Origin: Chloroflexota bacterium
GTDB taxonomy: Bacteria > Chloroflexota > DTOL01 > JACQYG01
Direction of reading: 5' to 3'
Assembly (NCBI GenBank): GCA_016208345.1
Contig: JACQYG010000203.1
Coordinates: 1 to 10,509, forward strand
DNA: 10,509 nucleotides
In this document: positions 1 to 10,509 of the stretch, one piece after another
How the letters are laid out: the number at the start of each line of letters is the position of its first letter
Numbering within the stretch: the stretch's first letter is position 1
Position numbers and translations under genes: made by a program
Notes under the pieces: generated by a model
The model's database searches: none
Told to the model about the DNA's origin: nothing
What the model saw: the letters and a program-made list of their open reading frames with translations, nothing else

Positions 1-416
1 CGCCGCAGAAAGGCCTGGAAGCTGATGTCCGCCCCCAGGAGCCGGGCCACCCCCTTCACCTGAGCCAGCTTGAGGTCGTTAACCTTGACGATCCGGCGCC
101 CCTGGGTGTCTACGATCTGCTTGTCCAGGACGTCCCGGGACAGGAAAAGCTCGCCGCTTGCCGGCACGTAGGGCTTGATGCTGTCCACGGGCACGTTCAG
201 CGAGATCCGGCGCTCCTCCAGGCCCACCACGTAACGCCAGGGCACGAGTAGGGTTTCCCTGGCAGAGAGAGGAGCAGGGGCGGGCACAGCCACGGCCAGG
301 GCCACCACGGTGGGGAAGAGCTCCCCATGGGACACCACCAGGTCGCTAAGGCTTCCGATCTTGCGTCCCTGAGAATCGTAGACCGCTTCGTTGAGCAGGT
401 CGCTGAGGAAGACCAT
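1..416 (-). CDS. PRC-barrel / MgtE-N family protein (CBS/magnesium transporter-like), N-terminal part, cut by window edge
   Basis: Reading the minus strand from an ATG at 416 gives an uninterrupted frame to the window edge (138 codons). It begins MVFLSDLLNEAVYDSQGRKI, a first PRC-barrel strand set (residues about 1-80). A second PRC-like unit follows (about residues 84-138) with the characteristic stretch FLSRDVLDKQIVDTQGRR and then IVKVNDLKLA. This double arrangement is known from proteins annotated as MgtE N-terminal/CBS-domain or magnesium transporter in Chloroflexota and Firmicutes; the MgtE_N and CBS domains would lie beyond the edge. A G-rich purine tract (GGGGGGTGG) sits about 5 bases before the ATG. 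Whether the full protein has MgtE transmembrane helices cannot be seen, so transport is not proven; some relatives lack them. It follows a strong promoter at 778-806 with a leader of about 350 bases. Confidence 0.82.
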   Translation of the reverse strand, partial: MVFLSDLLNEAVYDSQGRKIGSLSDLVVSHGELFPTVVALAVAVPAPAPLSARETLLVPWRYVVGLEERRISLNVPVDSIKPYVPASGELFLSRDVLDKQIVDTQGRRIVKVNDLKLAQVKGVARLLGADISFQAFLR

Positions 417-590
417 CCAAACCACCCCCCGTCTGTAGAGTAGAACAGGCAGCGTGCGGAGGCGCCTGCGCCGAGCGTGATTTGGACATCCAGATGCCGA
501 TCAGGGAATTGCAGAAGACAAACGAGAAGAGGCAGGTACGGAGGAGAATACGGTGGAGCGAGACGGGACATCACCTCCTGCAGAAGCTAA

Positions 591-731
591 TCAATCGCAC
601 CCCTCCCTAACGCACCACTCTATAGCTTTTCTGCCCATGTCTACGCTTGTCCTCTGGTCTCCCGCCACACCCTTGTTCAACCACGCCGGGTCGGCGTCGG
701 TACGGGAACTGTGACTGGGACCGGAGTCCAC
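591..731 (-). CDS. possible small protein of 46 residues, unknown function
   Basis: On the minus strand a GTG at 731 is preceded by GGAGGTGAG, an excellent ribosome binding site ending 5 bases upstream. It opens a 46-codon frame ending in TGA at 593-591. The N-terminal half is polar (VDSGPSHSSRTDADPAWLNK); the C-terminal half looks like an amphipathic helix ending MGRKAIEWCVREGCD, with two cysteines. Third-position GC is about 70%, in line with real genes here. It is the first frame after the strong promoter at 778-806 and precedes the PRC-barrel gene by 174 bases. I do not recognise the family. It could be a regulatory leader ORF, a free small protein, or a chance frame. Confidence 0.4.
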   Translation of the reverse strand: MDSGPSHSSRTDADPAWLNKGVAGDQRTSVDMGRKAIEWCVREGCD

Positions 732-777
732 GATCACTCACCTCCCAGAAGATCTTGATTTTTGGCCATGCCGAGAT

Positions 778-806
778 ATATTAGTCTTTGAATTGCCATT
801 TGTCAA
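778..806 (-). promoter_or_regulatory. sigma70-type promoter for the small ORF and PRC-barrel gene
   Basis: The minus strand reads TTGACA (801-806), a 17-base spacer, then TAATAT (778-783): a perfect -35, optimal spacing and a -10 one base off TATAAT. The surrounding DNA is AT-rich, unlike the GC-rich genes. The predicted start near 771 gives a leader of about 350 bases to the ATG at 416, or about 40 bases to the small ORF at 731. Confidence 0.75.
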
Positions 807-855
807 TACTTTTTCCCAATCAATATCCTGACTCCGCTGAAAGAACTCAGATTGA

Positions 856-914
856 ACCGCAGAGCACGCTGAGCACGCTGAGTTTTCCTGGATTTTCTCT
901 GCGCTCTCAGCGTT
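856..914. repeat. CGCTGAG/CGCAGAG-type palindromic repeat, copy 1
   Basis: The left arm starts at AACCGCAGAGCACGCTGAG and contains a further CACGCTGAG unit; the right arm is CTCTGCGCTCTCAGCGTT. The arms are imperfect reverse complements around an AT-rich loop. The arms are themselves short tandem units of the form CGC(T/A)GAG. This matches a widely dispersed intergenic repeat style seen in many environmental bacterial genomes (ACCGCAGAG... families). It sits between the DUF1385 gene end (951) and the promoter at 778-806, and as RNA could fold into a hairpin acting as a 3' end structure. A related copy lies at 9952-10017. Confidence 0.8.
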
Positions 915-950
915 CTTGTATACTGAGACTTGGGTTTGAACCTTAACAAC

Positions 951-1802
951 TCACGGGGTCTTGCAGATCGCCGTGATTGCCACCTCGATCTGCGAGCGGT
1001 CCGGCTCCCGGGTGGTCAGGCTCTGCAGGGACAGGCCCGGCGCCATGGCCGCCTTCACCCACCACAGACGGAAATTGTTCGCCGCCAGTTTTATGAACTC
1101 ATACGAGATGGCGGCCACCACCGGCACCAGGGCAATTCGGGAGAGCACGCGCCAGAACATGGGCGGACGGCCCAGGAGGGCGAACACCAGGATACAGGCC
1201 ACCAGGACCACCAACAAGAAACTCGTGCCGCACCGGGGATGGGCGGTGCTGTACCGCTCCACAGCCTGGGCCTCCAGCGGTTCACCGGCCTCGTAGGCGT
1301 TGATAGCCTTATGCTCGGCGCCGTGGTACGCGAACACCCGCCTGATGTCTGGCAGCAGGCCGATGAGGGCGATGTATCCCACGAAAAAGGCGATGCGAAC
1401 CGCACCCTCCACCACGTTGCTGACCAATGAGGACGCGATGTAGCGGTCAGCGAAGCTGGTCAACAGGAGAGGCGTCACGAAGAATACGCCCACGGCCAGG
1501 GCCAATGCGAAGAAGAGCGTCCCCCATATCATCGGGCCTGAGAGTTGCACGTCTTCCTCTTCCAGGGCCACCGCGGCGGAGTACATTATCGTCCTGATCC
1601 CCAGGATCAGCGTATCCCAGAGCAGCACCAGACCCCGAGCGAAAGGCAGCTTCCAGAAGGGATGGGTGTAGATGGCAGCGTTGAGCGGCTCGCTGTGGAC
1701 AATGATGTCCCCGGAGGGCTTGCGCACCGCCACGGCCATGTGCCTCTGGCCACGCATCATGACCCCCTCCATGACCGCCTGCCCACCGTAGTGGAAACTC
1801 AT
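951..1802 (-). CDS. DUF1385 (YqhQ/COG3872) family membrane protein, predicted metal-dependent enzyme
   Basis: The protein has 283 residues from the ATG at 1802. This start is chosen because the family begins with the hallmark seen here at residues 6-18, GGQAVMEGVMMRG. Other family signatures are YHGAEHK (159-165), HPRCGTSF (188-195) and TTREP (263-267) near the C-terminus. The conserved His/Glu/Cys residues are why a metal site is suspected, but no reaction is established. Hydrophobic segments lie at about 92-115, 131-150, 194-212 and 219-240, so it is a multi-pass inner-membrane protein. It starts 5 bases after the tdk stop codon, with AGGG-type purines in the end of tdk as binding site, so the two are probably translated from one message. 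A longer frame reaching into tdk is open but lacks family similarity before this Met. Confidence 0.92.
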   Translation of the reverse strand: MSFHYGGQAVMEGVMMRGQRHMAVAVRKPSGDIIVHSEPLNAAIYTHPFWKLPFARGLVLLWDTLILGIRTIMYSAAVALEEEDVQLSGPMIWGTLFFALALAVGVFFVTPLLLTSFADRYIASSLVSNVVEGAVRIAFFVGYIALIGLLPDIRRVFAYHGAEHKAINAYEAGEPLEAQAVERYSTAHPRCGTSFLLVVLVACILVFALLGRPPMFWRVLSRIALVPVVAAISYEFIKLAANNFRLWWVKAAMAPGLSLQSLTTREPDRSQIEVAITAICKTP

Positions 1803-1807
1803 GATCC

Positions 1808-2407
1808 CTATCCCTTTTCCCCTTCTCCCGGCCTTCGCGGCACTTCGTGGCAGTGCCGGCAACGGGCCTCGTACATCTCGCTGGCCCCCACCGCGATTAC
1901 GGGATCGTCGTAGGCCGCGGGCCTGCCGTCGATGAGGCGCTGGCTGCGGCTGGCTGCCCCACCGCACGACATGCAGATGGCGGCCAGCTTGTCCACCATC
2001 TCCGCCCGGGCCATCAACGTGGGCACCGGGCCAAAGGGTTCGCCTCGGAAATCCAGATCCAGCCCGGCCACGATCACCCGCACGCCTCGATCCGCCAGGT
2101 CGCAGCACAGCTCCACGATCTCGGCATCGAAGAACTGCACCTCGTCGATGGCCACCACGTCCACGTCGGACGCCAGGGCCTGGACGAGCTCCCGGGTGGC
2201 CCGCACCGACATGGCCTCCACCGACGTGCCGCTGTGGGAGGAGATGCCACTAATGGAATAGCGGGTATCGATGGCTGGCTTGAAGACCTGCACCCTTTGC
2301 CGGGCGATCTGGGCCCGCCGCACCCGGCGGATGAGCTCCTCGCTCTTGCCCGAGAACATCCCACCGCAGATCACCTCGATCCACCCGGCTTTTTGCGGTT
2401 GGGGCAT
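1808..2407 (-). CDS. tdk: thymidine kinase (type II)
   Basis: The protein has 199 residues, normal for the bacterial type II family. It phosphorylates thymidine to dTMP with ATP in the cytoplasmic salvage pathway. Visible motifs: P-loop GGMFSGKS (15-22), DEVQFF (88-93) with Glu89 as the expected catalytic base, [12 protein letters not shown] (115-126), and the lasso/zinc region with Cys145-x2-Cys148 and Cys183-x2-Cys186 (CMSC and CRHC). All four zinc ligands are present. The ATG at 2407 has GGAG 6 bases upstream. It follows rpmE after 87 bases containing a weak hairpin plus T-run, and precedes the DUF1385 gene by 5 bases. Linkage of tdk with rpmE and a DUF1385 gene is familiar from Firmicutes and Chloroflexota. 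Confidence 0.97.
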
Positions 2408-2431
2408 GCGTTGCTCCAGATAACAGCGGTT

Positions 2432-2460
2432 AAAGAAAAAGGCAAAGTGGGGGAGCCACT
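2432..2460 (-). terminator. weak hairpin plus T-run between rpmE and tdk
   Basis: On the minus strand AGTGG (2460-2456), loop CTCCC and CCACT (2450-2446) form a 5-bp stem. It is followed by TTGCC and then TTTTTCTTT (2440-2432). The stem is short and the T-run is separated by GCC, so it may be only a partial terminator that lowers tdk expression relative to the ribosomal genes, or chance. Confidence 0.35.
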
Positions 2461-2494
2461 CTGCCTCGGCAACTACCCTGTAAGGGCGGAGCGA

Positions 2495-2716
2495 CTAGGT
2501 TTCGGCGGCCAGCTTCTGGCTGCGCTCCAGCTTACGCATGAAGCGCTCCACCTGACCAGCGGTATCAACGATGCGCTGCTCACCGGTGAAAAAGGGATGG
2601 CATTTGGAGCAAACGTCGGTCTTCAGGATCTTCTTGGTAGAGCCAGTCTTGAACGTATTGCCGCAAGCGCAGGTAACCAGGGCCTCGAAATACTCCGGAT
2701 GTATGCCTTTCTTCAT
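2495..2716 (-). CDS. rpmE: 50S ribosomal protein L31 (zinc, C+ form)
   Basis: The protein has 73 residues and begins MKKGIHPEY, the standard L31 start. Four cysteines at 16, 18, 36 and 39 (CACG and CSKC) make it the zinc-binding C+ form rather than the zinc-free paralogue. The conserved [20 protein letters not shown] (40-59) is intact, with a short basic/acidic tail after it. It bridges the two ribosomal subunits through the central protuberance. The ATG at 2716 has AGGA 5 bases upstream. It lies 36 bases after rpmA, and a candidate promoter overlaps the rpmA stop codon. No Zur-like palindrome was noticed upstream. Confidence 0.97.
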
Positions 2717-2727
2717 CTGTCCTCACT

Positions 2728-2756
2728 TGTATAAAGCCTGGCCTCGCTTATGTCAA
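2728..2756 (-). promoter_or_regulatory. candidate promoter for rpmE embedded in the rpmA stop codon
   Basis: The minus strand reads TTGACA (2751-2756; its TGA is the rpmA stop), a 17-base spacer, then TATACA (2728-2733). The -35 is perfect and the -10 close to consensus. The expected start near 2721 is only about 5 bases before the rpmE ATG (2716) and would cut into its AGGA site. It would therefore give a nearly leaderless mRNA, or it is a fortuitous match. Confidence 0.35.
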
Positions 2757-3022
2757 GGCTGCGCCGGCTGGCGGGCATAGACGCTGACCTGCTGCTTGCC
2801 TTTGGCCACGAATTCAAACTTCACCGCACCGTCAATGGTGGCATAGATGGTGTGATCCTTACCCAAGCCCACGTTGCGGCCCGGCCGGAACTCCGTGCCC
2901 CGTTGCCGGACGATGATCGTGCCGGCCCTCACCGCTTCACCGGCAAAACGCTTTATTCCCAGTCGCTTGGACTGGCTGTCCCGGTTGTTTCTCGAGCTTC
3001 CCACACCTTTTTTATGAGCCAC
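2753..3022 (-). CDS. rpmA: 50S ribosomal protein L27
   Basis: The protein has 89 residues, typical length. It begins directly with [16 protein letters not shown], the mature N-terminus that reaches toward the peptidyl-transferase centre. There is no Firmicutes-type cleavable extension. Conserved segments: [20 protein letters not shown] (20-39), RGTEFRPG and [12 protein letters not shown]. The start is a GTG at 3022, fixed by the invariant N-terminus and by GGAGGT 7 bases upstream. It lies 29 bases after rplU, the near-universal rplU-rpmA pairing. The C-terminal tail (QPAQP) is a small family-variable extension. Confidence 0.97.
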
Positions 3023-3051
3023 GTCGGTACCTCCATTGATCTGCCGAACCG

Positions 3052-3372
3052 CTACGCTATGATCTCGTTTATCTCCAGCCTGGTAAAGTCCTGGCGGTGG
3101 CCCAGTCGGCGGCGATAGCGCACCTTGGGCTTGTATTTGAAAACGACGATTTTCTTGCCTCGGTCGTTGGCCACTACGGTGGCTTTCACCTTGGCGCCCG
3201 GCACCGTGGGCTGGCCAACTTTCACCTGCCCGCCGTCGGCCACCAGGAGCACCCGGTCCAGCTCCACTGGCTCACCTTCTTCAAAGGGCAGGCTCTCCAC
3301 GTCCACCTTGTCGCCCACCGAGACCCTGTATTGTTTTCCGCCCGTCTCCACGATGGCGTATTGATCGCTCAA
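3052..3372 (-). CDS. rplU: 50S ribosomal protein L21
   Basis: The protein has 106 residues. It begins with the classical [17 protein letters not shown] (5-21) and ends with the 23S-binding basic segment [20 protein letters not shown] (79-98), followed by the LEI strand. The start codon is TTG at 3372, supported by GAGGAG at 3381-3386 with an 8-base gap. An ATG just upstream (from 3380) is out of frame. It is the first gene after a very strong promoter (3433-3462), with a small perfect hairpin in its leader. It therefore heads the rplU-rpmA-(rpmE) unit, separate from recO 136 bases upstream. Confidence 0.97.
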
Positions 3373-3401
3373 CGAACATGCTCCTCACGACATAGCAAAT
3401 G

Positions 3402-3416
3402 GAGGCTCCCAGCCTC
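3402..3416 (-). promoter_or_regulatory. hairpin in the rplU leader
   Basis: The minus strand carries GAGGCT-GGG-AGCCTC, a perfect 6-bp stem with a 3-base loop. It lies between the predicted transcription start (about 3426) and the rplU ribosome binding site (3381-3386). Structured L21 leaders with autoregulatory roles are known in other bacteria. Here the position is suggestive only, and no match to a known L21 leader motif was established. Confidence 0.35.
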
Positions 3417-3432
3417 GATTCCACAAGCGGGC

Positions 3433-3462
3433 ATTATAGCAGAGCGGCCAAACCATTGTCAA
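3433..3462 (-). promoter_or_regulatory. strong sigma70 promoter for rplU-rpmA
   Basis: The minus strand reads TTGACA (3457-3462), an 18-base spacer, and TATAAT (3433-3438): both hexamers are perfect. The expected start near 3426 gives a leader of about 54 bases to the TTG start of rplU. This strength fits a ribosomal protein operon. Confidence 0.85.
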
Positions 3463-3474
3463 GTCTGCTAAGCC

Positions 3475-3497
3475 GAGTTATTTAACTAAAAGAACTC
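3475..3497. repeat. AT-rich imperfect palindrome downstream of recO, possible decayed copy of the 18-base element
   Basis: GAGTT at 3475-3479 and AACTC at 3493-3497 flank an AT-rich core (ATTTAACTAAAAG) that itself is nearly self-complementary, giving about 8 paired bases with one mismatch. The core resembles TTCTTT-CTAG-AAAGAA but differs in length by one base. It lies between the recO stop (3509) and the -35 of the rplU promoter. It is not followed by a clear T-run, so it is not a standard terminator. Confidence 0.3.
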
Positions 3498-3508
3498 ACG
3501 CCCGCCCC

Positions 3509-4279
3509 TTACGGCATCACTCCCTGGCGGCGCAGAGTGCGTAGGAACTCGGTGGATTTCAGGTCTCGCTCCAGGAGGTAGCGCAGGTAGCCGCCCAGGA
3601 GGGTTTGGATCTCGGCTTGAACGTCAGGGCCCAGGCGCAGGCGGCTGGCCCCGGGATAGGGGTTGTCCTGCAGGAACCGCAACACCTTGAGCCCATCCAG
3701 GCTCAGGTCAGGCGCGGATAGGTCTTTATGGCGGCAGTCCACGCACAGAACTCCACCCAAGGCAGGGCTGAAGACGTTGACCCGCGGCTCCAAGGCCCTG
3801 CCGCAAGAGACGCAGCTTCGCAATTGAGGCCGATACCCCAGGTGCTCCAGGAGCTTGACCTCGTAGTAGCGCATCAGGAGTTGCAGGTCTTTGACCGTGG
3901 TCAGGAGACCCAGGACCTCCAAAAGCAACTCGAACAGCGGGCGGTTTTCCAATCGCTCCTCGGTGAAGCCGTCCAAGAGCTCCATCAGGTAGCAGGCGTG
4001 GGATAGGCGCCACAGGTTCTCCCGCAACTCCCGGAAGGAGTGGATGGTCTCGGCCTGGGTGATGATGTCCAGGTTCCGGCCGGTGGCCACGAGAAGGCGC
4101 GAGTGGGTGAAGGGCTCCAGATGGCCGCCCATCTTGCTGGTGGGCCGGCGCACGCCCTTGGCCACCGCCCGGATCTTACCCAGGTAAGGGGTGTAGGCGG
4201 TCACGATCTTGTCGGCTTCGCCCAGGTCCAGCCGCTTCAGGACAATGGCCTCGGTCTTGTAAACTCGTTCAGTGCGCAT
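3509..4279 (-). CDS. recO: DNA repair protein RecO
   Basis: The protein has 256 residues. The N-terminal OB-fold (about 1-80) starts YKTEAIVLKRLDLGEADKIV, with the typical GKIRAVAKGVRRPTSKMGG segment. A helical domain follows (about 85-150, FTEERLENRPLFELLLEVL). The zinc-finger-like module has Cys156, Cys159, Cys179 and Cys182 (CVSC and CVDC), all intact. RecO acts with RecR to load RecA onto SSB-coated gaps. The ATG at 4279 lies 13 bases after the radical SAM gene stop. No clear Shine-Dalgarno is visible there (pyrimidine-rich CTCTACCCCC), so translation is probably coupled to the gene upstream. It appears to be the last gene of the long operon from ruvX. Confidence 0.95.
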   Translation of the reverse strand: MRTERVYKTEAIVLKRLDLGEADKIVTAYTPYLGKIRAVAKGVRRPTSKMGGHLEPFTHSRLLVATGRNLDIITQAETIHSFRELRENLWRLSHACYLMELLDGFTEERLENRPLFELLLEVLGLLTTVKDLQLLMRYYEVKLLEHLGYRPQLRSCVSCGRALEPRVNVFSPALGGVLCVDCRHKDLSAPDLSLDGLKVLRFLQDNPYPGASRLRLGPDVQAEIQTLLGGYLRYLLERDLKSTEFLRTLRRQGVMP

Positions 4280-4292
4280 GGGGGTAGAGCAG

Positions 4293-5720
4293 CTAGTCCG
4301 CGTCTATCTGCAGGAAATGGGTGAGCGAACGCAGGAACTCCCGCGTGGAGAGCCGGTGCGGGTGCAATCGGTTTTTAAGGGCGTATCCCTTCCAGAGTTT
4401 GTAGATGAGCCAGTATAGCCGGTTGGACGGCAGCTTGAGGCAGAGCCCGATAAGCGGCAGCAGGAATGGCCACTCCACCCCTACGGCGAAGAGCTTTTGC
4501 AAGTTCTCGATCTGCCGCTTCTCACGGGCATCGCTGAAACGCAGCACCGAATGAGCCGTGGCGGAGAAGGATATATCGTCGAAGGTACCTTCCATCAAGT
4601 GCTCTCGCTGAGCATACTCGCCCAGGGCGGTGCGGGGATAGGGCTGGAAGAGCAAGGCCGAGGCGTAGGCCGGCTTGCAGGCCCGGTTCAACTCCAGGGT
4701 CTCCAGGTCCGCCGCCAGGGAGCCACCGGGCAGGCCCAACATGTTGGTAGTCATCACGGCGATGTCCTGAGCGCCCAGAAGCTGGCAGGCCCGGATGATG
4801 GTCTCCTTGGACATGTTGCGGTTGAGCACGCGGTTACGCAGCTCGTCGTTCCCCGCCTCCACGCCCATGCTTACGCTGACGCAGCCGGCCTGCTTGAGCA
4901 GGCGGACAATGTCGTCGTTCACCAGGTTGGCCCGGACCTGGCACCAGAAAGGCTTGCCGATGACCCGCGGATACTTCTCCGCGAACTCGGCCACCCACTC
5001 CCGGGAAACGATGAAGGTATCGTCCATGAAGAGGGCCAGTTGAAAGGGATAGGCCTCCAGCACCCAGGACATCTCCGCCAGCACGTTATCCACGCTGCGC
5101 TGGCGGACCATCCGTCCCTTCCCACGGTAGAGCTTGGCAAAGGAATGATTGAAACAATAGGTGCAATTGTATGGGCAACCCCGGCCGGTTATGAACGGCT
5201 TCAAGGGGTTATAGCGGCTGGGGGCGTAGCGCTCGTAGAGCAGGGCCCGATCAGGAAAGGGCAGGCGATCCAGGTCCTCCACCAGGTGGCCCGGGGCGTT
5301 TTCGTGGATAGCGCCATTCTCCTTGATCCACCAGTTGGCAATGCCCGTCACCGGCTGTCCAGACTGGAGGGCATTGGCCAGCTCCAGAAAAGCCCCCTCG
5401 CCCTCACCGATGCAAATGCCGTCCACACCATCTTCCTGGATCAGCTCCGGGAAGAAGGTGGGGTGTGGCCCGCCAAAGACGGAGAAGACCTTTTGCCGGG
5501 CCCGGATGCGCCGGTTTACCTCCAGATAGTAGTGCTGGGAGCCGGTGAAGACGCTGTAGGCCACGATGTCGGGCCGCCAGCGAGCGGCCATTTCCGTCGG
5601 GTCTTGGACTGCGCCGATGGCCAACTCCACCTCATGTCCACCCGATTTGAGGACGCTGGAAAGATGCAGGATACCCAGGTGGTCGTTGTCCACCTGCTTG
5701 AGGATGAATAGAATACGCAA
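4293..5720 (-). CDS. radical SAM protein with N-terminal B12-binding-like domain
   Basis: The protein has 475 residues. Residues 1-125 form a cobalamin-binding-type Rossmann domain (MRILFILKQV, LGILHLSSVLKSGGHEV, YSVFTGSQHYY, FGGPHPTF, CIGEGEGAF). The classical cobalamin-ligand motif DxHxxG is absent: the corresponding stretch is NDHLGILHL. The radical SAM core spans about 175-390 and carries the [4Fe-4S] motif Cys182-x3-Cys186-x2-Cys189 (GCPYNCTYC), MDDTF (232-236), SMGVEAGND (284-292) and GLPGGS (329-334). The C-terminal 85 residues are hydrophobic/basic (WPFLLPLIGLCLKLPSNRLY), perhaps membrane-associating. The overall plan is that of BchE/HpnJ/methyltransferase-like enzymes, but the substrate cannot be read from the sequence. 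It lies 12 bases after the yqeB-type gene and 13 before recO, so it is in the same operon. Confidence 0.9.
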   Translation of the reverse strand: MRILFILKQVDNDHLGILHLSSVLKSGGHEVELAIGAVQDPTEMAARWRPDIVAYSVFTGSQHYYLEVNRRIRARQKVFSVFGGPHPTFFPELIQEDGVDGICIGEGEGAFLELANALQSGQPVTGIANWWIKENGAIHENAPGHLVEDLDRLPFPDRALLYERYAPSRYNPLKPFITGRGCPYNCTYCFNHSFAKLYRGKGRMVRQRSVDNVLAEMSWVLEAYPFQLALFMDDTFIVSREWVAEFAEKYPRVIGKPFWCQVRANLVNDDIVRLLKQAGCVSVSMGVEAGNDELRNRVLNRNMSKETIIRACQLLGAQDIAVMTTNMLGLPGGSLAADLETLELNRACKPAYASALLFQPYPRTALGEYAQREHLMEGTFDDISFSATAHSVLRFSDAREKRQIENLQKLFAVGVEWPFLLPLIGLCLKLPSNRLYWLIYKLWKGYALKNRLHPHRLSTREFLRSLTHFLQIDAD

Positions 5721-5732
5721 GCCGCTATCCTT

Positions 5733-6563
5733 TCACCGATGGATGGCCTGGGGACCGCGCCGCGAGAGCAGGTAAAGGATCGCCTCCAGCACACCGCCGC
5801 CGATGGCCAGCGCCTTGTCCGAGATCGTGAAACAGTACTCTCTCTCCCCCCGGGGGTCCACGTCGCCCACCTTCATTCCAGGCCTCACCTGGAGCCCGTC
5901 GGCCAGGAGGCCCCGGAGCACGCCGCCGATGCTGGTCACCACCGGCCGGCCAGCCACCAGGGCCACCGTGTCGCCCGCCTTCACCATGTCGCCGATCTCC
6001 TTCATGCCCTGAAAGACCCCAGCCGCTGGCGCCCGGAGCACCCTCTCCTGGCCGTACCCCTCCACCTCACCGGGCACCCCGGTGTCCGGGGCAGCAGCGC
6101 CCTCCAGGATCACCCGCCCCAGGTGGTGGCCCCGCTGGGTCTCCACCACGGCGTGGCAGTCCACCCCGGCGGCGAAGCCAGGCCCCAGGGCGACGACGAT
6201 GGGTGCGTCGGTCTGACGGGTGCCGGTGTTGCGCTTGGCCATGATGGCGTCCACCAGGACGCCGGGCCGCAGGACGCCAAGGGCCTGAGCCTCGGGATCG
6301 ATTAATACCGGTATCACGCCCTCTGACCAGGCCGAAGGCACGTCCATAGGGCTGGCCGCCAACCGGGCGGTGACGCCCTCCACGCTCGTCTGTCCCTGGA
6401 AGACCGCGTTGGCAAAGGCCACTGTCCGGCGGATCACCGTGGGGTGCTCCAGCTCGGTAATGGCCACCCGCAGGCCCGCCCGGTGGAGCCGGTGGGCCAC
6501 CCCGCTGGCCAGGTCGCCCCCGCCTTTGATCAGCACGATCACGTCACGCAGAGCAGTGGTCAT
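5733..6563 (-). CDS. YqeB-family selenium-dependent molybdenum hydroxylase accessory protein
   Basis: The protein has 276 residues. The N-terminus is a Rossmann-type nucleotide-binding segment, VIVLIKGGGDLASGVAHRL (8-26), followed by ITELEHPTVIRRTVAFANAV, a hallmark of the YqeB/EF2563 family linked to selenium-dependent molybdenum hydroxylases. Further family segments are VDAIMAKRNTGT (104-115), VALGPGF (124-130), HHLGRVILEG (146-155), RAPAAGVF (177-184) and ISDKALAIGGGVLEAIL (247-263). It probably helps mature the selenium-containing cofactor of an xanthine-dehydrogenase-like enzyme; the step is not established. The ATG overlaps the upstream xdhC-type stop as ATGA, indicating translational coupling. 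There is no hydroxylase, selD or selA in the window. Its start lies 4 bases from an 18-base palindromic element. Confidence 0.88.
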   Translation of the reverse strand: MTTALRDVIVLIKGGGDLASGVAHRLHRAGLRVAITELEHPTVIRRTVAFANAVFQGQTSVEGVTARLAASPMDVPSAWSEGVIPVLIDPEAQALGVLRPGVLVDAIMAKRNTGTRQTDAPIVVALGPGFAAGVDCHAVVETQRGHHLGRVILEGAAAPDTGVPGEVEGYGQERVLRAPAAGVFQGMKEIGDMVKAGDTVALVAGRPVVTSIGGVLRGLLADGLQVRPGMKVGDVDPRGEREYCFTISDKALAIGGGVLEAILYLLSRRGPQAIHR

Positions 6564-7402
6564 GTTTTCTTTACTAGCAAAGAATTCCTGGAGAGCGATT
6601 CGCCGCTGCCGACCTTCTTGACCTTGACTATCTCGGCCATGATCGAAAGGGCGATCTCCTCCGGCGTCTCCGCCCCCAGGTCCAGCCCGATGGGCGCCCG
6701 CACCCGGGCCAGCCTCTCCGCCGGAACCCCCTCCTTCGCCAGCCGGTCCAGGACCACCTTCACCTTGCGGCGGCTGCCGATCATGCCGATGTAGGCTGCG
6801 TCGGTGCCAACCACCCGTCGCAGGGCCTCCTCGTCCGAATCGTGGCCGCCGGTGACGATCACGACATAGGTGCTGGCATCAATCGGAAGCTCCGCCACAG
6901 CATCGGCTGCCTTCTTCGCCAGCAGGCGCTGGGCCTGCGGGAAATTCTTTACTAACAAAGAAACCCGCTCGTCGACCACCGTCACCGCAAACCCGGCAAG
7001 GGCTCCAATTTGAGCCAGGGGTTGAGCGATGTGCCCGGCGCCAAAGATTAGGAGCACCGGCTTGGGAATCAGCACGTCCACGAAAACCTCCATGGTGCCG
7101 CCGCACAGCATGCCCAGGTCGCTCTTCGTCTCGTCCAGGGTGTAGGACAAGTTCCTGGGCGCCCCGGACCCCATGGCCGTCAGGGCTTCCTGGATCACCC
7201 GGGCCTCCACTGCCGCCCCGCCGATAGTGCCGGCGATGGAGCCATCGGGATAGACCAACATCTTGGCCCCAGGGGACCGGGGCGTTGATCCCACCGCCCT
7301 GGTCACCGTGACCAGGGCCACTCTCTGGCCCTGGCGCAAAGCCTCTGCCGCTAGCTGAACGATGTCTTCCACGTCTCTCCAGTCGGATGGGAGCCCAACC
7401 AT
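6560..7402 (-). CDS. XdhC/CoxI-family xanthine dehydrogenase accessory protein
   Basis: The protein has up to 280 residues. The XdhC_CoxI domain at about 13-110 carries VGSTPRSPGAKMLV (37-50), GTIGGAAVEARV and the conserved MLCGG with Cys100. The Rossmann XdhC_C domain at about 116-258 carries LLIFGAGHIAQPLA (117-130), VTGGHDSDEEAL, YIGMIGSRRK (204-213) and GLDLGAETPEEIALSIMAEI (239-258). The family delivers or sulfurates the molybdenum cofactor for xanthine-dehydrogenase-type hydroxylases. The ATG at 7402 has no clear ribosome site; a GTG at 7372, preceded closely by GGAG, aligns better with the usual family N-terminus and is a real alternative. Two copies of an 18-base palindrome lie inside the gene, encoding SLLVKN (148-153) and, at the C-terminus, SLLVKK (274-279). 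The last residues are thus repeat-derived. Confidence 0.93.
   Translation of the reverse strand: MVGLPSDWRDVEDIVQLAAEALRQGQRVALVTVTRAVGSTPRSPGAKMLVYPDGSIAGTIGGAAVEARVIQEALTAMGSGAPRNLSYTLDETKSDLGMLCGGTMEVFVDVLIPKPVLLIFGAGHIAQPLAQIGALAGFAVTVVDERVSLLVKNFPQAQRLLAKKAADAVAELPIDASTYVVIVTGGHDSDEEALRRVVGTDAAYIGMIGSRRKVKVVLDRLAKEGVPAERLARVRAPIGLDLGAETPEEIALSIMAEIVKVKKVGSGESLSRNSLLVKKT
6567..6584. repeat. 18-base palindromic element, copy A (3' end of xdhC-type gene)
   Basis: The plus strand reads TTCTTTACTAGCAAAGAA: 6-base arms TTCTTT/AAAGAA around ACTAGC. On the coding (minus) strand it encodes S-L-L-V-K-K, the last residues but one of the XdhC-type protein. The yqeB-type start codon (6563-6561) lies just beyond it. 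It is the exact reverse complement of copy C at 9643-9660. Confidence 0.9.
6945..6962. repeat. 18-base palindromic element, copy B (inside xdhC-type gene)
   Basis: The plus strand reads TTCTTTACTAACAAAGAA, differing from copy A at one base (ACTAAC instead of ACTAGC). On the coding strand it encodes S-L-L-V-K-N at residues 148-153, just after the VTVVDER strand of the Rossmann domain. Relatives have a variable stretch here (VDxRPEFxN-type) before the conserved FP. Confidence 0.88.
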
Positions 7403-7439
7403 GTCGCGCGGGAGAACGTCAATCTTTATCCCTTATCCC

Positions 7440-8312
7440 CTAGCCGTTATTCAAACTCAACCCCTTGAGATACTCTCGAAACTCCGGGCCCAGGTCCGGG
7501 CGCCGGAGAGCGTACTCCACCGAAGCCTTCAGGAAACCCAGCTTGCTCCCGGCGTCGTAGCGGGTGCCGACGAACTCGTACCCGTAGATGGCCTGCCGCC
7601 GTAGGAGGGCCCGGAGCCCATCAGTGAGCTGTATCTCCCCGCCCTTGCCCGCCGGCACCTGGGCCAGGAACTCAAAGATCTCGGGGGTCAGGATGTAGCG
7701 CCCGATGATGGCCAGGTCTGAGGGCGCCTCCTTGGGCTCAGGCTTCTCGATCATATTGGAGATCTGGTATACCCTGTCCTCGATCTGGCGAGGCTCGATG
7801 ATGCCATAGGAAGCAGTATCTTCCTTAGGCACCCGTTGCACCGCAACGACCGAGCACTTATAGCGATCATACACCTCGATCATCTGCTTCATGCAGGGCG
7901 TCGGGGCCTCGATGAGGTCGTCGCTGAGGAAGATGGCGAAGGGCTCGTCGTCCACCAGTTCCTCGGCCACCAGGATGGCGTGGCCCAGCCCCAGGGGCTC
8001 CTTCTGCCGGATGTAGTGGATGGTGGCCATGTCGGAGATGCTGCGGATCTCCCTCAGGGCCTGGGTGTCGCCCTTCTGGCTCAGGAAATACTCCAGCTCG
8101 AAGGATATGTCGAAATGGTCCTCGATGGCCCGTTTGCCCCGGCCGGTGACGATGATGATCTCCTCAATGCCAGAGGCCACGGCCTCTTCCACCACGTACT
8201 GGATGATCGGCTTGTCCACCAAAGGCAGCATCTCCTTGGGTTGAGCCTTGGTGGCCGGAAGAAAGCGCGTCCCCAGCCCGGCGGCGGGGAAGACGGCCTT
8301 GCGAATTCTCAT
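7440..8312 (-). CDS. galU: UTP-glucose-1-phosphate uridylyltransferase
   Basis: The protein has 290 residues from the ATG at 8312 and makes UDP-glucose from UTP and glucose-1-phosphate for envelope polysaccharides. The nucleotide-binding start is KAVFPAAGLGTRFLPATKAQ (5-24), then PKEMLPLVDKPIIQYVVEEA. Further typical segments: LGLGHAILVA, FAIFLSDDLI, YGIIEP, IEKP, AIIGRYILTPEIFEFL, GEIQLTDGL and GTRYDAGSKLGFLKA. The start is chosen from AGGAGG at 8322-8327, 9 bases upstream. An in-frame ATG at 8330 would add six residues (MRRKRS), but those codons are the ribosome site itself. It follows mltG after 14 bases, with the Shine-Dalgarno beginning in the mltG stop, and precedes the xdhC-type gene by 37. 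Confidence 0.95.
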   Translation of the reverse strand: MRIRKAVFPAAGLGTRFLPATKAQPKEMLPLVDKPIIQYVVEEAVASGIEEIIIVTGRGKRAIEDHFDISFELEYFLSQKGDTQALREIRSISDMATIHYIRQKEPLGLGHAILVAEELVDDEPFAIFLSDDLIEAPTPCMKQMIEVYDRYKCSVVAVQRVPKEDTASYGIIEPRQIEDRVYQISNMIEKPEPKEAPSDLAIIGRYILTPEIFEFLAQVPAGKGGEIQLTDGLRALLRRQAIYGYEFVGTRYDAGSKLGFLKASVEYALRRPDLGPEFREYLKGLSLNNG

Positions 8313-8321
8313 CGATCGTTT

Positions 8322-8327
8322 CCTCCT
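8322..8327 (-). promoter_or_regulatory. ribosome binding site of galU, overlapping the mltG stop codon
   Basis: AGGAGG on the minus strand, beginning with the last base of the mltG TGA (8329-8327) and ending 9 bases before the ATG at 8312. It decides the galU start over the overlapping ATG at 8330 and suggests coupled translation of mltG and galU. Confidence 0.8.
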
Positions 8328-9460
8328 CATTTCTGGTACTTCTTTTGGTTCTCCAGGTGCTCCTCAAAGCTCCGGGCAAAGGCGTGGGTCCCGTCGCCTT
8401 TAGAGTAATAGTAAAGGAAGTCGGTCTTGGCCGGTTGCAGCACCGCCTGCAGGGAGGCCAGACCAGGGCTGCAAATGGGCCCCGGCGGCAGGCCGGGGTT
8501 CAGATAGGTGTTATAGGGAGACTGGACGGTGCGAAGCTCGTTCAGTTGCAACGGGTTCCACCACAGCTTCGTCTCTGGCCGGTAGCCGATGGCGTACTGC
8601 ACGGTGGCGTCGGCCTCCAGGGGCATGCCCGCGGCCCAGCGTTTCAGGTATATGGCGGCGATAATTGGTCGCTCGCTGGCGGCCTGGGCCTCCCGCTCCA
8701 CCAGGGAGGCCACGGTCACCACCTGATGGATGGTCAGCTTGCGCTCGGCCGCCTGCTGGCGCATGGCCGGGGTGAAGCGCTGGCCGAAGCCCTCCAGCAT
8801 CATCCCCACCAGGGCCTCGGCGCTGGGCCGGCCCGCGATATGGTAGGTGTCCGGGAAAAGGTAGCCCTCCAGGGAGCTGCCGGAGGGGCGGTCTCGGAGA
8901 AAAGGATAGTCGTATCGGCCCGTGGCCACCACTTTCAGGAACTCCTTCTGGTCCACCAGCCCCTGCTTGCCGAGAAGCTCCGCCACCTCCTCGGCCCGCA
9001 GCCCCTCTCGGATGATGGCCTTGAGCACGCCGGGTTGGCCATGCTGCAGGGCGGCGATGATCTCGTCCATGGTCATGTTGCGCCGCAGCCTGTACTCCCC
9101 CGCCTCCAGCCGCTCGCCCAGGCCGCGGCTCTTCACCACCTGCCGGAACAGGTTCGCATCCCTGATCAGGCCCTGGCTCTGCAGGCGCGAGGCGATGCTG
9201 GCAGCGGTGTCGCCGGAGCGAACGGTGAAGCTTACCTCGCTGGGATCCGTGCTGGCCGGGGCCTGGATCTCATCCTTCTTCGCCCACAGGTACACGTCGA
9301 GAAGGAATCCTTCCAGCATCCTGGCCGATGAGGAATTGCCTTTCACCTGCCCTTGAAAAGCCAGAACCATGCCACCGCAGGAGCCCAAGATGAGCCCCAG
9401 GGCGATCGCGAACCCCGCAAAGCGGAGAGCCCTTTTAGCCTTTATGGGTAAAGAAAACAT
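8327..9460 (-). CDS. mltG: endolytic murein transglycosylase MltG (YceG-like)
   Basis: The protein has 377 residues, somewhat longer than E. coli MltG. A basic N-terminus (KAKRALR) and a hydrophobic segment at about 14-35 anchor it in the membrane. A LysM-like part follows at about 78-110 (FTVRSGDTAASIASRLQ). The YceG catalytic domain spans about 145-370 with GYLFPDTY (199-206), VASLVEREAQ (250-259; Glu255 is the expected catalytic acid, equivalent to E. coli Glu218), LEADATVQYA (281-290), and SPYNTYLNPGLPPGPICSPG (314-333). It cleaves nascent glycan strands and releases them from the growing cell wall. The hydrophobic segment contains LGSC (25-28), a lipobox-like string. The ATG at 9460 is one base after the ruvX stop, with no clear Shine-Dalgarno of its own, so translation is probably coupled. 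Confidence 0.95.
   Translation of the reverse strand: MFSLPIKAKRALRFAGFAIALGLILGSCGGMVLAFQGQVKGNSSSARMLEGFLLDVYLWAKKDEIQAPASTDPSEVSFTVRSGDTAASIASRLQSQGLIRDANLFRQVVKSRGLGERLEAGEYRLRRNMTMDEIIAALQHGQPGVLKAIIREGLRAEEVAELLGKQGLVDQKEFLKVVATGRYDYPFLRDRPSGSSLEGYLFPDTYHIAGRPSAEALVGMMLEGFGQRFTPAMRQQAAERKLTIHQVVTVASLVEREAQAASERPIIAAIYLKRWAAGMPLEADATVQYAIGYRPETKLWWNPLQLNELRTVQSPYNTYLNPGLPPGPICSPGLASLQAVLQPAKTDFLYYYSKGDGTHAFARSFEEHLENQKKYQK
9438..9455. repeat. possible decayed copy of the 18-base palindromic element at the mltG start
   Basis: The coding strand of the mltG start, ATGTTTTCTTTAC (9460-9448), is identical over 13 bases to the plus strand at 6562-6574 (copy A with its left flank). The remaining half (CCATAAAGG) retains only AAAG. 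It encodes F-S-L-P-I-K, in the same phase as the S-L-L-V-K of intact copies. Similarity is partial (12 of 18 positions), so common origin is a suggestion. Confidence 0.35.
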
Positions 9461-9461
9461 T

Positions 9462-9896
9462 CTAATGATTATGTCCAGTCTGCTGGGCCCGGAAATCCAG
9501 GTATGACTGGAGGATCAACTGCGCCGTGGCGGCGTCGATCTTTTCCTTGCGCTGCTGGCGCCGCAGGCCAGCCTCCACCATCATCCTCTCCACCTCCACC
9601 GTGGAAAGGCGCTCGTCCCAGAGCACCACTGGCAGGCCGGTTTTCTTTGCTAGTAAAGAAGCAAAGTGCCGGGCCTGCCGCGCCTGGGCCCCGGCCCGAC
9701 CATCCATGAGCAAAGGGTGCCCTACTACAATGGCCTCCACCTCTAGTTTACCTGCCAACTGGGCCACCGCCTCCAGGTCCTTCTTCCGGCCCTGGCACTC
9801 CAGCACTGAATGGCCCTGGGCCAGGAAGGCCTGGGGGTCGCTTACCGCCACCCCGATGCGCCGCCCGCCCAGATCGAGGCCCAGGATGCGTCCCAT
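9462..9896 (-). CDS. ruvX: Holliday junction resolvase-like / pre-16S rRNA nuclease (YqgF/RuvX)
   Basis: The protein has 144 residues, normal for the YqgF family with an RNase H fold. It matures the 16S rRNA 5' end in E. coli and is often annotated as a putative Holliday junction resolvase. Motifs: GLDLGGRRIGVAVSD (6-20) with Asp7, IVVGHPLLMDG (56-66, where most relatives have VGLPxxMDG), VLWDERLST (91-99) with Asp94 and Glu95, and DAATAQLILQ (121-130) with Asp121. All expected acidic residues are present. The ATG at 9896 has AGGGG 5 bases upstream. The segment FASLLAKKTGLP (78-89) contains palindromic copy C, which encodes SLLAKK (80-85) in the helix before the DER strand, without lengthening the protein noticeably. 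First gene of the long run to recO. Confidence 0.95.
   Translation of the reverse strand: MGRILGLDLGGRRIGVAVSDPQAFLAQGHSVLECQGRKKDLEAVAQLAGKLEVEAIVVGHPLLMDGRAGAQARQARHFASLLAKKTGLPVVLWDERLSTVEVERMMVEAGLRRQQRKEKIDAATAQLILQSYLDFRAQQTGHNH
9643..9660. repeat. 18-base palindromic element, copy C (inside ruvX)
   Basis: The plus strand reads TTCTTTGCTAGTAAAGAA, the exact reverse complement of copy A. On the coding strand it encodes S-L-L-A-K-K, residues 80-85 of the YqgF/RuvX protein. Because the element is almost self-complementary, either orientation in this phase gives S-L-L-(A/V)-K-K. Confidence 0.9.
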
Positions 9897-9951
9897 GTCT
9901 GCCCCTGATTCTCTACTAATGGAGGCTCACCCCAAACCGACGAGGGCACTC

Positions 9952-10017
9952 ACCGCCGAGAGCGCGGAGTTCGCTGAGATCATTCCTTATTTCTGCGCTC
10001 TCAGCGGTCTCAGCGGT
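9952..10017. repeat. CGCTGAG/CGCAGAG-type palindromic repeat, copy 2
   Basis: The left arm is ACCGCCGAGAGCGCGGAG followed by TTCGCTGAGA; the right arm is TCTGCGCTCTCAGCGG followed by TCTCAGCGGT, around an AT-rich loop (TCATTCCTTATT). The arms are imperfect reverse complements. It shares the CTCTCAGCG right-arm core with copy 1 at 856-914. It lies in the spacer between the baseplate-like gene (ends 10083) and ruvX (starts 9896), upstream of the ruvX operon. Confidence 0.8.
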
Positions 10018-10082
10018 AAAAAGCTTGTCTCATGCTAATAATTCACCCTATGACGGTGCCTGGTAAAGAAAGCGCGCCACCC

Positions 10083-10509
10083 TCACTGCTCCAGCACCGT
10101 AACCTGGATCTTAAAATCGAACAGGGGGAGCCTCCCCAGAAAGCCCCGTTCCAGCGTGATCTGGGGTTCCCGGTTCAGCTTGAAACTCTGAAGCAACGTT
10201 TCGGTGGCTGCTTCCACCGTCTTGCCACGCACCGCACCGAGGACCTGGCCCGGGCTGATCTCGGCCCTCTGTCTCCCCGCCACCGTCAATTGGAACGAGG
10301 CCACGCCGCCCTCGAATTTCACGTTCGCCGGCCCCTTGAAGTCTATCTCTTCGGGAACCAGGGCGTAGCCGGCCTTTACCTTCGACTTCAGAAGCTGCCG
10401 GGCCATCTCTGCCAGCTCGCCACCGGATACCACCAGGCCCGACACCTCCACCTGCATCCGGGACAGGGAAACCTTATCCGCCACCTGGTCCAGGTCCTTG
10501 TCGTAGTCC
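10083..10509 (-). CDS. baseplate J/gp47-like protein, C-terminal part (5' end beyond window)
   Basis: The frame is open from the window edge (visible residues begin DYDKDLDQVADKVSLSR) to a TGA at 10085-10083, giving 141 residues; an internal GTG at 10484 is not taken as the start. The visible part has alternating beta-strand-rich stretches and a helix (GGELAEMARQLLKSKV). It ends in GKTVEAATETLL followed by FLGRLPLFDFKIQVTV. That closing pattern (a 'GK...A...' helix, then a strand with RLP and a final IxVxV strand) is what I know from the ends of baseplate J/gp47-family proteins annotated in Chloroflexota, often beside ruvX. No tail or phage gene is nearby, so this is probably a chromosomal cell-envelope or secreted relative. 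Family assignment is by recall and uncertain. Confidence 0.6.
   Translation of the reverse strand, partial: DYDKDLDQVADKVSLSRMQVEVSGLVVSGGELAEMARQLLKSKVKAGYALVPEEIDFKGPANVKFEGGVASFQLTVAGRQRAEISPGQVLGAVRGKTVEAATETLLQSFKLNREPQITLERGFLGRLPLFDFKIQVTVLEQ

Follow-up and report, generated by a model that had tools for sequence, protein, structure and literature searches.

We describe a very small dispersed palindromic repeat family, so far known from two genomes of one genus, of which three copies lie in a 10,509-nucleotide contig of a Chloroflexota bacterium (contig JACQYG010000203.1 of assembly GCA_016208345.1, positions 1 to 10,509; the whole stretch is referred to here as the window). The family consensus is the perfect 18-bp palindrome TTCTTTACTAGTAAAGAA. 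Its copies are dispersed and mainly intergenic, occur within genes only in stop-free phases, occupy many orthologous sites in the two species, and drift about as fast as the surrounding DNA. What sets the family apart is the form that presence and absence take between the species, namely block replacement, as shown for a few sites that are mostly not polarized. The reading that we favor, with confidence somewhat better than even, is that of a small palindromic repeat family (18-bp core, often 20 bp) gained by copy-and-replace events.

The palindrome family and its copies in the window

The window is contig C164 of G000, a 2.10-Mb draft genome (74% complete, 366 contigs), and it was compared with a single congener, G001 (84% complete, 320 contigs). 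The assignment to Chloroflexota is based on the deposited name and on homologues labeled Anaerolineae or Chloroflexota. A preliminary description of this DNA had reported three near-identical 18-bp palindromes and proposed counting the motif in the genome and its relatives. The three palindromes were confirmed: at ≤3 mismatches the pattern occurs at three places in the window (6 matches counting both strands), whereas 200 dinucleotide-shuffled versions of the window gave no match at all, even at 3 mismatches. The count recovered 109 whole-genome sites in G000 and 161 in G001 at ≤2 mismatches, while 59 further genomes from the phylum had no site; at ≤1 mismatch there were 61 and 90 sites, respectively, and none in 249 other phylum genomes, a set that includes the 59. 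A control pattern, the palindrome read backwards, was found 0 times in both carriers and once in a few noncarriers.

We also scanned for exact matches in one genome per species across 84,980 species, a collection that may omit records very near the window's genome. This recovered 29 stretches, 23 of them in a metagenome-assembled genome labeled ‘Ktedonobacter racemifer isolate FI88_62_8’ (contigs ‘Afr_mines’), where their positions match those of G001; the remaining 6 were singletons from six other records. Two viral contigs carry one exact copy each. The window had no Rfam match at gathering thresholds, and a literature search, mostly of nonsubscription papers, found no paper containing the palindrome sequence and, judged by title, none on small mobile palindromes that concerned this lineage.

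Mismatch counts were made in sampled DNA (540,565 bases of G000 and 936,056 of G001, with two locus pairs overlapping slightly). Sites at 0, 1, 2, and 3 mismatches numbered 17, 26, 21, and 23 in G000 and 28, 31, 35, and 40 in G001, compared with means of 0, 0, 0.02, and 0.22 (G000) and 0, 0, 0.04, and 0.39 (G001) for 200 composition-matched control palindromes. About half of the sampled G000 contigs were chosen for containing sites, which inflates the density there and leaves the whole-genome counts unaffected. Both genomes still show an excess at 4 mismatches (15 and 24 sites versus control means of 2.7 and 4.5), as does G001 at 5 mismatches (34 versus 13.9), while at 6 mismatches there is none (38 and 59 versus 44.8 and 75.3). 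In sampled DNA, the palindrome core is the most frequent 10-, 12-, and 14-mer of both genomes, which have 62% G+C (the G000 contigs being site selected). The least variable positions of the palindrome are its outer TT and the C next to the center, and departures from the consensus are mirrored on the opposite arm in 14 of 290 cases. Chance origin is ruled out by the window shuffles together with the control-palindrome counts, and an assembly artifact by orthologous copies in two assemblies, each with its own substitutions.

All three window copies are coding, in minus-strand genes, and read in the SLL phase. Copy 1 (6567..6584, 1 mismatch from the consensus) forms the final codons (SLLVKK) of an XdhC-type gene (6560..7402, minus strand; homologues with PF02625 and PF13478), whose protein ends ...NSLLVKKT; its orthologous copy in G001 has one additional change. 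Copy 2 (6945..6962, 2 mismatches) lies within the same gene and encodes SLLVKN, and its G001 counterpart is the exact consensus. Copy 3 (9643..9660, 1 mismatch), the exact reverse complement of copy 1, lies within ruvX (9462..9896, minus strand; PF03652), encodes SLLAKK, and does not differ between G000 and G001.

Presence and absence between the two species

The two species share about 95% aligned identity (94.7% in one comparison and 95.7% in another). Among sites for which both flanks were found, 36 of 44 from G000 and 37 of 48 from G001 are shared. We called a site nonshared when the other species had both flanks but no element at ≤4 mismatches. Sites lying within 60 bases of the end of a locus were excluded, as were 124 site queries lacking one or both flanks. 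This left 19 nonshared sites (8 in G000 and 11 in G001), none of which is a plain insertion. Sorted by hand, they comprise 8 clean replacements, 2 cases in which another hairpin stands in the other species, 3 cases in which the element is altered, and 6 messy regions. At the clean replacements the other allele consists of 16 to 31 nt of unrelated sequence between flanks of 87 to 100% identity, with lengths with/without the element of 20/20, 22/28, 21/20, 19/25, 19/16, 22/20, 19/22, and 19/31. The alternative allele is 7 to 11 mismatches from the best-placed consensus window, and the lengths are unequal in 7 of the 8. Presence and absence of the element are thus a matter of block replacement, on few sites, mostly not polarized.

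A second scan, covering 215,832 aligned columns, identified 51 blocks of low identity with good flanks on either side. The element is present in 6 replacement blocks and absent from 26, and the other 19 blocks are insertions or deletions. Some of the 26 element-free replacement blocks contain runs of N, and many contain another hairpin family. The cores of two such families, F2 and F3, match 10 and 13 times in the G000 sample but never in that of G001, which indicates gain in G000; each of the 5 copies for which pairing was possible (L062:2758, L156:8195, L066:6372, L089:4260, and L089:6038) occupies the place of 11 to 21 nt of other sequence in G001. The comparison can detect insertions, since a miniature inverted-repeat transposable element (MITE)-like element, F7, was read as a clean 134 nt versus 0 at L094:189 of G001 against L060 of G000; the F7 core is matched exactly 11 times in the G001 sample and not at all in that of G000.

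Two further observations concern the window. At 2726-2739 it has 14 nt where G001 has 34 nt with a hairpin, a further replacement. Its stretches 840-930 and 9950-10020 are intergenic and rich in GCTGAG/CTCAGC inverted repeats, and by eye they recall the 134-nt MITE-like element.

Placement in genomes and proteins

Placement was tabulated for 189 sites at ≤3 mismatches, drawn from 318,816 G000 bases and 755,920 G001 bases, with genes called by a custom codon-score script in place of a standard gene finder; the counts pool both species, so that orthologous sites count twice. A T precedes 94 of these copies and an A follows 90, about half in each case, so many copies are 20 bp long. Most sites are intergenic (122 of 189; 14% expected at random), 58 lie in genes, and 9 overlap gene ends. 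Five of these overlaps provide the gene's stop codon (two of them orthologous), two touch a start by one base, and two cover a 3′ end in the SLL phase.

The in-gene sites divide into 33 in a phase reading FFTSKE and 25 in the phase reading SLLVKK, and none of the 189 sites lies within a gene in the stop phase. Because one of the three phases contains TAG TAA and the others are open, this bias is explained by survival, and with two open phases the agreement of all three window copies in one of them is unremarkable. The preliminary description had proposed a protein-tolerated palindrome that avoids its stop phase and always encodes SLL(V/A)K(K/N), and had suggested tabulating coding and intergenic placement and phase. 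Tolerance within proteins and avoidance of the stop phase are borne out; a single general phase and peptide are not, since most sites are intergenic and those in genes occupy either of the two stop-free phases. That the window copies agree in phase and peptide is local and incidental.

The intergenic copies are arranged between tandem genes in 80 cases, divergent genes in 18, and convergent genes in 5 (103 placed, with 19 at contig edges), where intergenic length predicts 70%, 21%, and 8%. They lie somewhat nearer to gene 3′ ends than to starts: a distance of ≤50 bp was seen for 48 of 90 with respect to 3′ ends and for 42 of 116 with respect to starts. Strong local clustering was rejected: adjacent pairs <100 bp apart numbered 5 and 6, where random placement gave means of 1.8 and 3.3 and a simulated range that includes the observed counts. 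Separately, we observed a group of four copies in ∼170 bp (L061:1455-1625 and L038:6481-6652) that is conserved between the two species, each having its own substitutions. At L090:964 and L050:2530, both in genes, a longer hairpin encloses the palindrome in its loop, with flanks complementary at 10 of 12 bp, and a 42-nt piece of L050 folds at −28.6 kcal/mol as RNA.

To relate the copies to the proteins that carry them, RuvX and XdhC were each compared with the best 120 of about 7,900 homologues. In RuvX the element fills six alignment columns, and all 120 homologues, of which two are near-identical or 90% identical, also have six residues there. Copy 2 in XdhC accounts for six residues where 117 of 120 homologues have seven, and the only six-residue homologue is the query's own cluster. 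With RuvX equal in length and XdhC one residue short, the element has replaced codons. The C-terminal XdhC copy falls where homologues are ragged (0 residues in 46 of 120 and 6 in 37 of 120). The preliminary description had also raised the case that SLLVKK is kept in distant homologues, and this was not seen among 25 listed RuvX homologues: an SLLVKK-type peptide occurs there only in P0121 (SLLAKK), which is near-identical, and in P0122 (SLLAKE), a fragment at 90% identity. A conserved peptide is ruled out, since homologues of RuvX and XdhC have other residues in the element columns.

These comparisons form part of a set of 10 copies selected from 48 nonredundant in-gene sites after Pfam scans of 20 proteins, and none of the 10 is a clear six-residue insertion. 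Compared with solved relatives, the UbiE-type protein is ∼1 residue shorter at its copy and the ARMT1-like protein ∼2 residues longer. The two copies in Ddl align without gaps at the element, with 8 extra residues nearby after it. In MutS and ValRS the element lies in longer, variable stretches where an insertion could be hidden, and in HemD it falls outside the aligned region. We also note that L086:3330-5324 is a single open frame with D-ala-D-ala ligase and FtsQ domains and has two palindrome copies in its ligase part.

Explanations and relation to known systems

In the explanation that we favor, a replication or repair tract would copy the palindrome from elsewhere, by template switching or gap repair aided by the hairpin, and would rejoin ∼20 nt further on, so that each gain would be one event overwriting local DNA; gene-breaking copies would subsequently be lost. 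We infer template switching for this palindrome ourselves, and we would guess that no dedicated transposase is required. Several findings weigh against copy-and-replace gain. Clean replacements are few (8), and direction is shown for none of them; the sole coding case tested for direction, a flavin-dependent dehydrogenase, has an unconserved C terminus (30 homologues aligned). Some nonshared copies have 3 mismatches, so losses may be included, and for 124 site queries one flank or none was present in the sampled DNA. By hand count, about ten of the element-free replacement blocks have neither hairpin nor N, and block replacement is therefore not special to the element. The excess at 4 to 5 mismatches fits old decayed copies and would equally fit intermediates. 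Finally, a search for spreading machinery identified none, both genomes being incomplete.

The first alternative, which we consider unlikely, is an unusually small repetitive extragenic palindrome (REP)-like element moved by the genome's own Y1 transposase of the REP-associated tyrosine transposase (RAYT) type. Y1_Tnp matches are present (3 in G000 and 1 in G001), the palindrome is mostly intergenic, and hairpin families that also change by replacement bracket two of the Y1 genes. At L197, a RAYT-like gene (1252-1926) has AGACTCCCGG hairpins on both sides (1213-1245 and 1878-1910), the core of which has 4 exact matches in the G000 sample and 18 in that of G001; at L198, a second RAYT-like gene (495-1040) has several GTCAGGAGT...ACTCCTGAC hairpins on both sides (240-430 and 1050-1225). 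Such bracketing hairpins are as expected of RAYTs. The palindrome itself, however, stands on both sides of a Y1_Tnp gene at 0 of 4 loci, in genomes whose incompleteness means that a RAYT could be missed; the sole near-copy has 4 mismatches (L198:170) and lies ∼300 bp from the gene in an upstream reading frame. The 58 of 189 sites in genes are also unlike typical REPs. Two other routes were dropped: Ku-type end joining, as Ku has no match in either incomplete genome, and reverse transcriptase as common machinery, as the match occurs in G001 only, in two pieces in two frames.

Slightly less probable still is that the palindrome functions as the target bound by a nucleoid or regulatory protein and is kept by selection where the local sequence allows. 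Noc, SlmA, MatP, and ParB are proteins with such sites, and chromosome-organizing sites of this type are marked by arms better conserved than the flanks and by a skewed chromosomal distribution. A perfect palindrome at >100 dispersed sites would suit this role, as would the unequal conservation of its positions. We examined 36 unique orthologous pairs, each required to have ≤4 mismatches, which introduces a slight bias against change; three pairs unplaced by the divergence script were dropped, including L060:2861, which has the same sequence in both species. Differences occur at 17 of 432 outer-arm positions, 24 of 216 central positions, and 200 of 3,539 flanking positions. The outer arms are thus slightly less changed than the flanks (3.9% versus 5.7%), but not significantly (P = 0.15), and the center changes faster than both flanks (P = 0.003) and outer arms (P = 0.0009). 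Among the 24 central differences, 22 are transitions, and 14 fall at a single half-position, consensus A7 together with its partner. With arms diverging about like flanks and the center faster, there is no clear sign of a maintained site; changes are mirrored in only 14 of 290 cases, and clean replacements alter the whole block and its length at once. The orthologous copies look like decaying inherited copies with a mutable center, although 36 pairs would miss weak constraint.

We regard as improbable that the palindrome, in the manner of HIP1, is built up in place by successive point mutations, whether selection or a mutational ratchet drives them. Such a ratchet has been proposed for HIP1 (PMC4390886), the RuvX element spans exactly the ancestral number of codons, and there is the mild excess of sites at 4 to 5 mismatches. 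Sites at 6 mismatches, however, are not above controls, and in the 8 clean replacements the alternative allele is 7 to 11 mismatches away, with lengths differing in 7. A transcription terminator or RNA-processing hairpin is the least probable of these readings and is rejected as a main role, for while 122 of 189 copies are intergenic and lie nearer 3′ ends than starts, and a few are enclosed in a larger hairpin as part of its loop (at least 8 of 12 flank bases are complementary in 7 of 189 versus ∼1.2 expected, some orthologous), there is no convergent-gene excess (5 of 103 placed versus 8% expected), the palindrome's own hairpin is weak (−2.6 kcal/mol for 18 nt), and many copies are in genes.

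If gains by copy-and-replace are single block replacements, a tiny repeat could rewrite several codons of a conserved enzyme at once, and the resulting clustered amino acid change would be easily mistaken for many point mutations. The palindrome would be one of the smallest repeats that look mobile, and two ∼95% identical genomes with >100 copies each, many in common and some not, make its multiplication testable with more strains. More tentatively, and with doubts outweighing our confidence, the palindrome may be a self-spreading, gene-free copy-and-replace sequence independent of any dedicated transposase, among the smallest mobile DNAs. A replication or repair tract would switch to whichever copy is exposed and, after copying its hairpin, rejoin ∼20 nt on, overwriting intergenic DNA and, if the frame and the protein permit, entire conserved codon blocks in one step; this would also explain the replacement-type gains of the other hairpin families.

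Small dispersed repeats (SDR, 21 to 27 nt) were reportedly described in Nostoc and its relatives by Elhai and colleagues in 2008, and their spread via an RNA intermediate has been proposed. The palindrome is like the SDRs, as these are said to be, in its size of ∼20 nt, in being dispersed, lineage restricted, gene free, and apparently mobile, and in its presence and absence between close relatives; it differs in being a perfect 18-bp palindrome, in its block-replacement differences, and in its unrelated lineage. MITEs have a target-site duplication and a clean empty site, whereas 0 of our 19 nonshared sites is a plain insertion. REPs and REP doublets forming hairpins (REPINs) with their RAYTs (PMC3116915) share with it short palindromes, a mostly intergenic placement, and RAYT-like genes in the genome, but the palindrome is shorter, AT rich, and not around a RAYT gene, and its 58 in-gene sites beside 122 intergenic ones depart from an extragenic location.

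The preliminary description had likened the element to Rickettsia palindromic elements and HIP1 while holding its sequence to be neither; the latter stands. The behavior of the palindrome is not that of an inserted element: it takes the place of codons or of other DNA. Rickettsia palindromic elements (PMC10969869) are likewise dispersed palindromes in frame in unrelated genes, but they are insertions of ∼150 bp that carry a peptide and lengthen the protein, while the 18-bp palindrome changes RuvX by 0 and XdhC by −1 residues and encodes two different peptides. HIP1 of cyanobacteria is also an iterated palindrome found in genes and elsewhere; it is 8 bp long (GCGATCGC, different from TTCTTTACTAGTAAAGAA), and its proposed stepwise gain is tied to methyltransferases (PMC4390886), whereas our palindrome is 18 bp, AT rich, and changes in blocks, with the other allele unrelated and of different length at 7 of 8 clean sites, few as these are.

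Palindromes are also reported within coding genes of nematomorph mitochondria (PMC6649704) and as mobile repeats in fungal mitochondria (PMC7218506), and ape genomes are reported to show short template switches (PMC7954356). The GC clusters of yeast mitochondria (PMC4478555) are likewise short and palindromic with an unsettled mechanism of multiplication, but they are organellar and GC rich, were searched at ≥30 bp, and have a putative AG target-site duplication. In Escherichia coli, segment replacement is the dominant change at variable loci of small size, and palindromic units are the site of 105 of 640 microdiversity loci (PMC2884548); these units, of 30 to 37 bp and described as intergenic, are unlike the 18-bp palindrome in both respects and resemble it in undergoing replacement rather than plain insertion or deletion.

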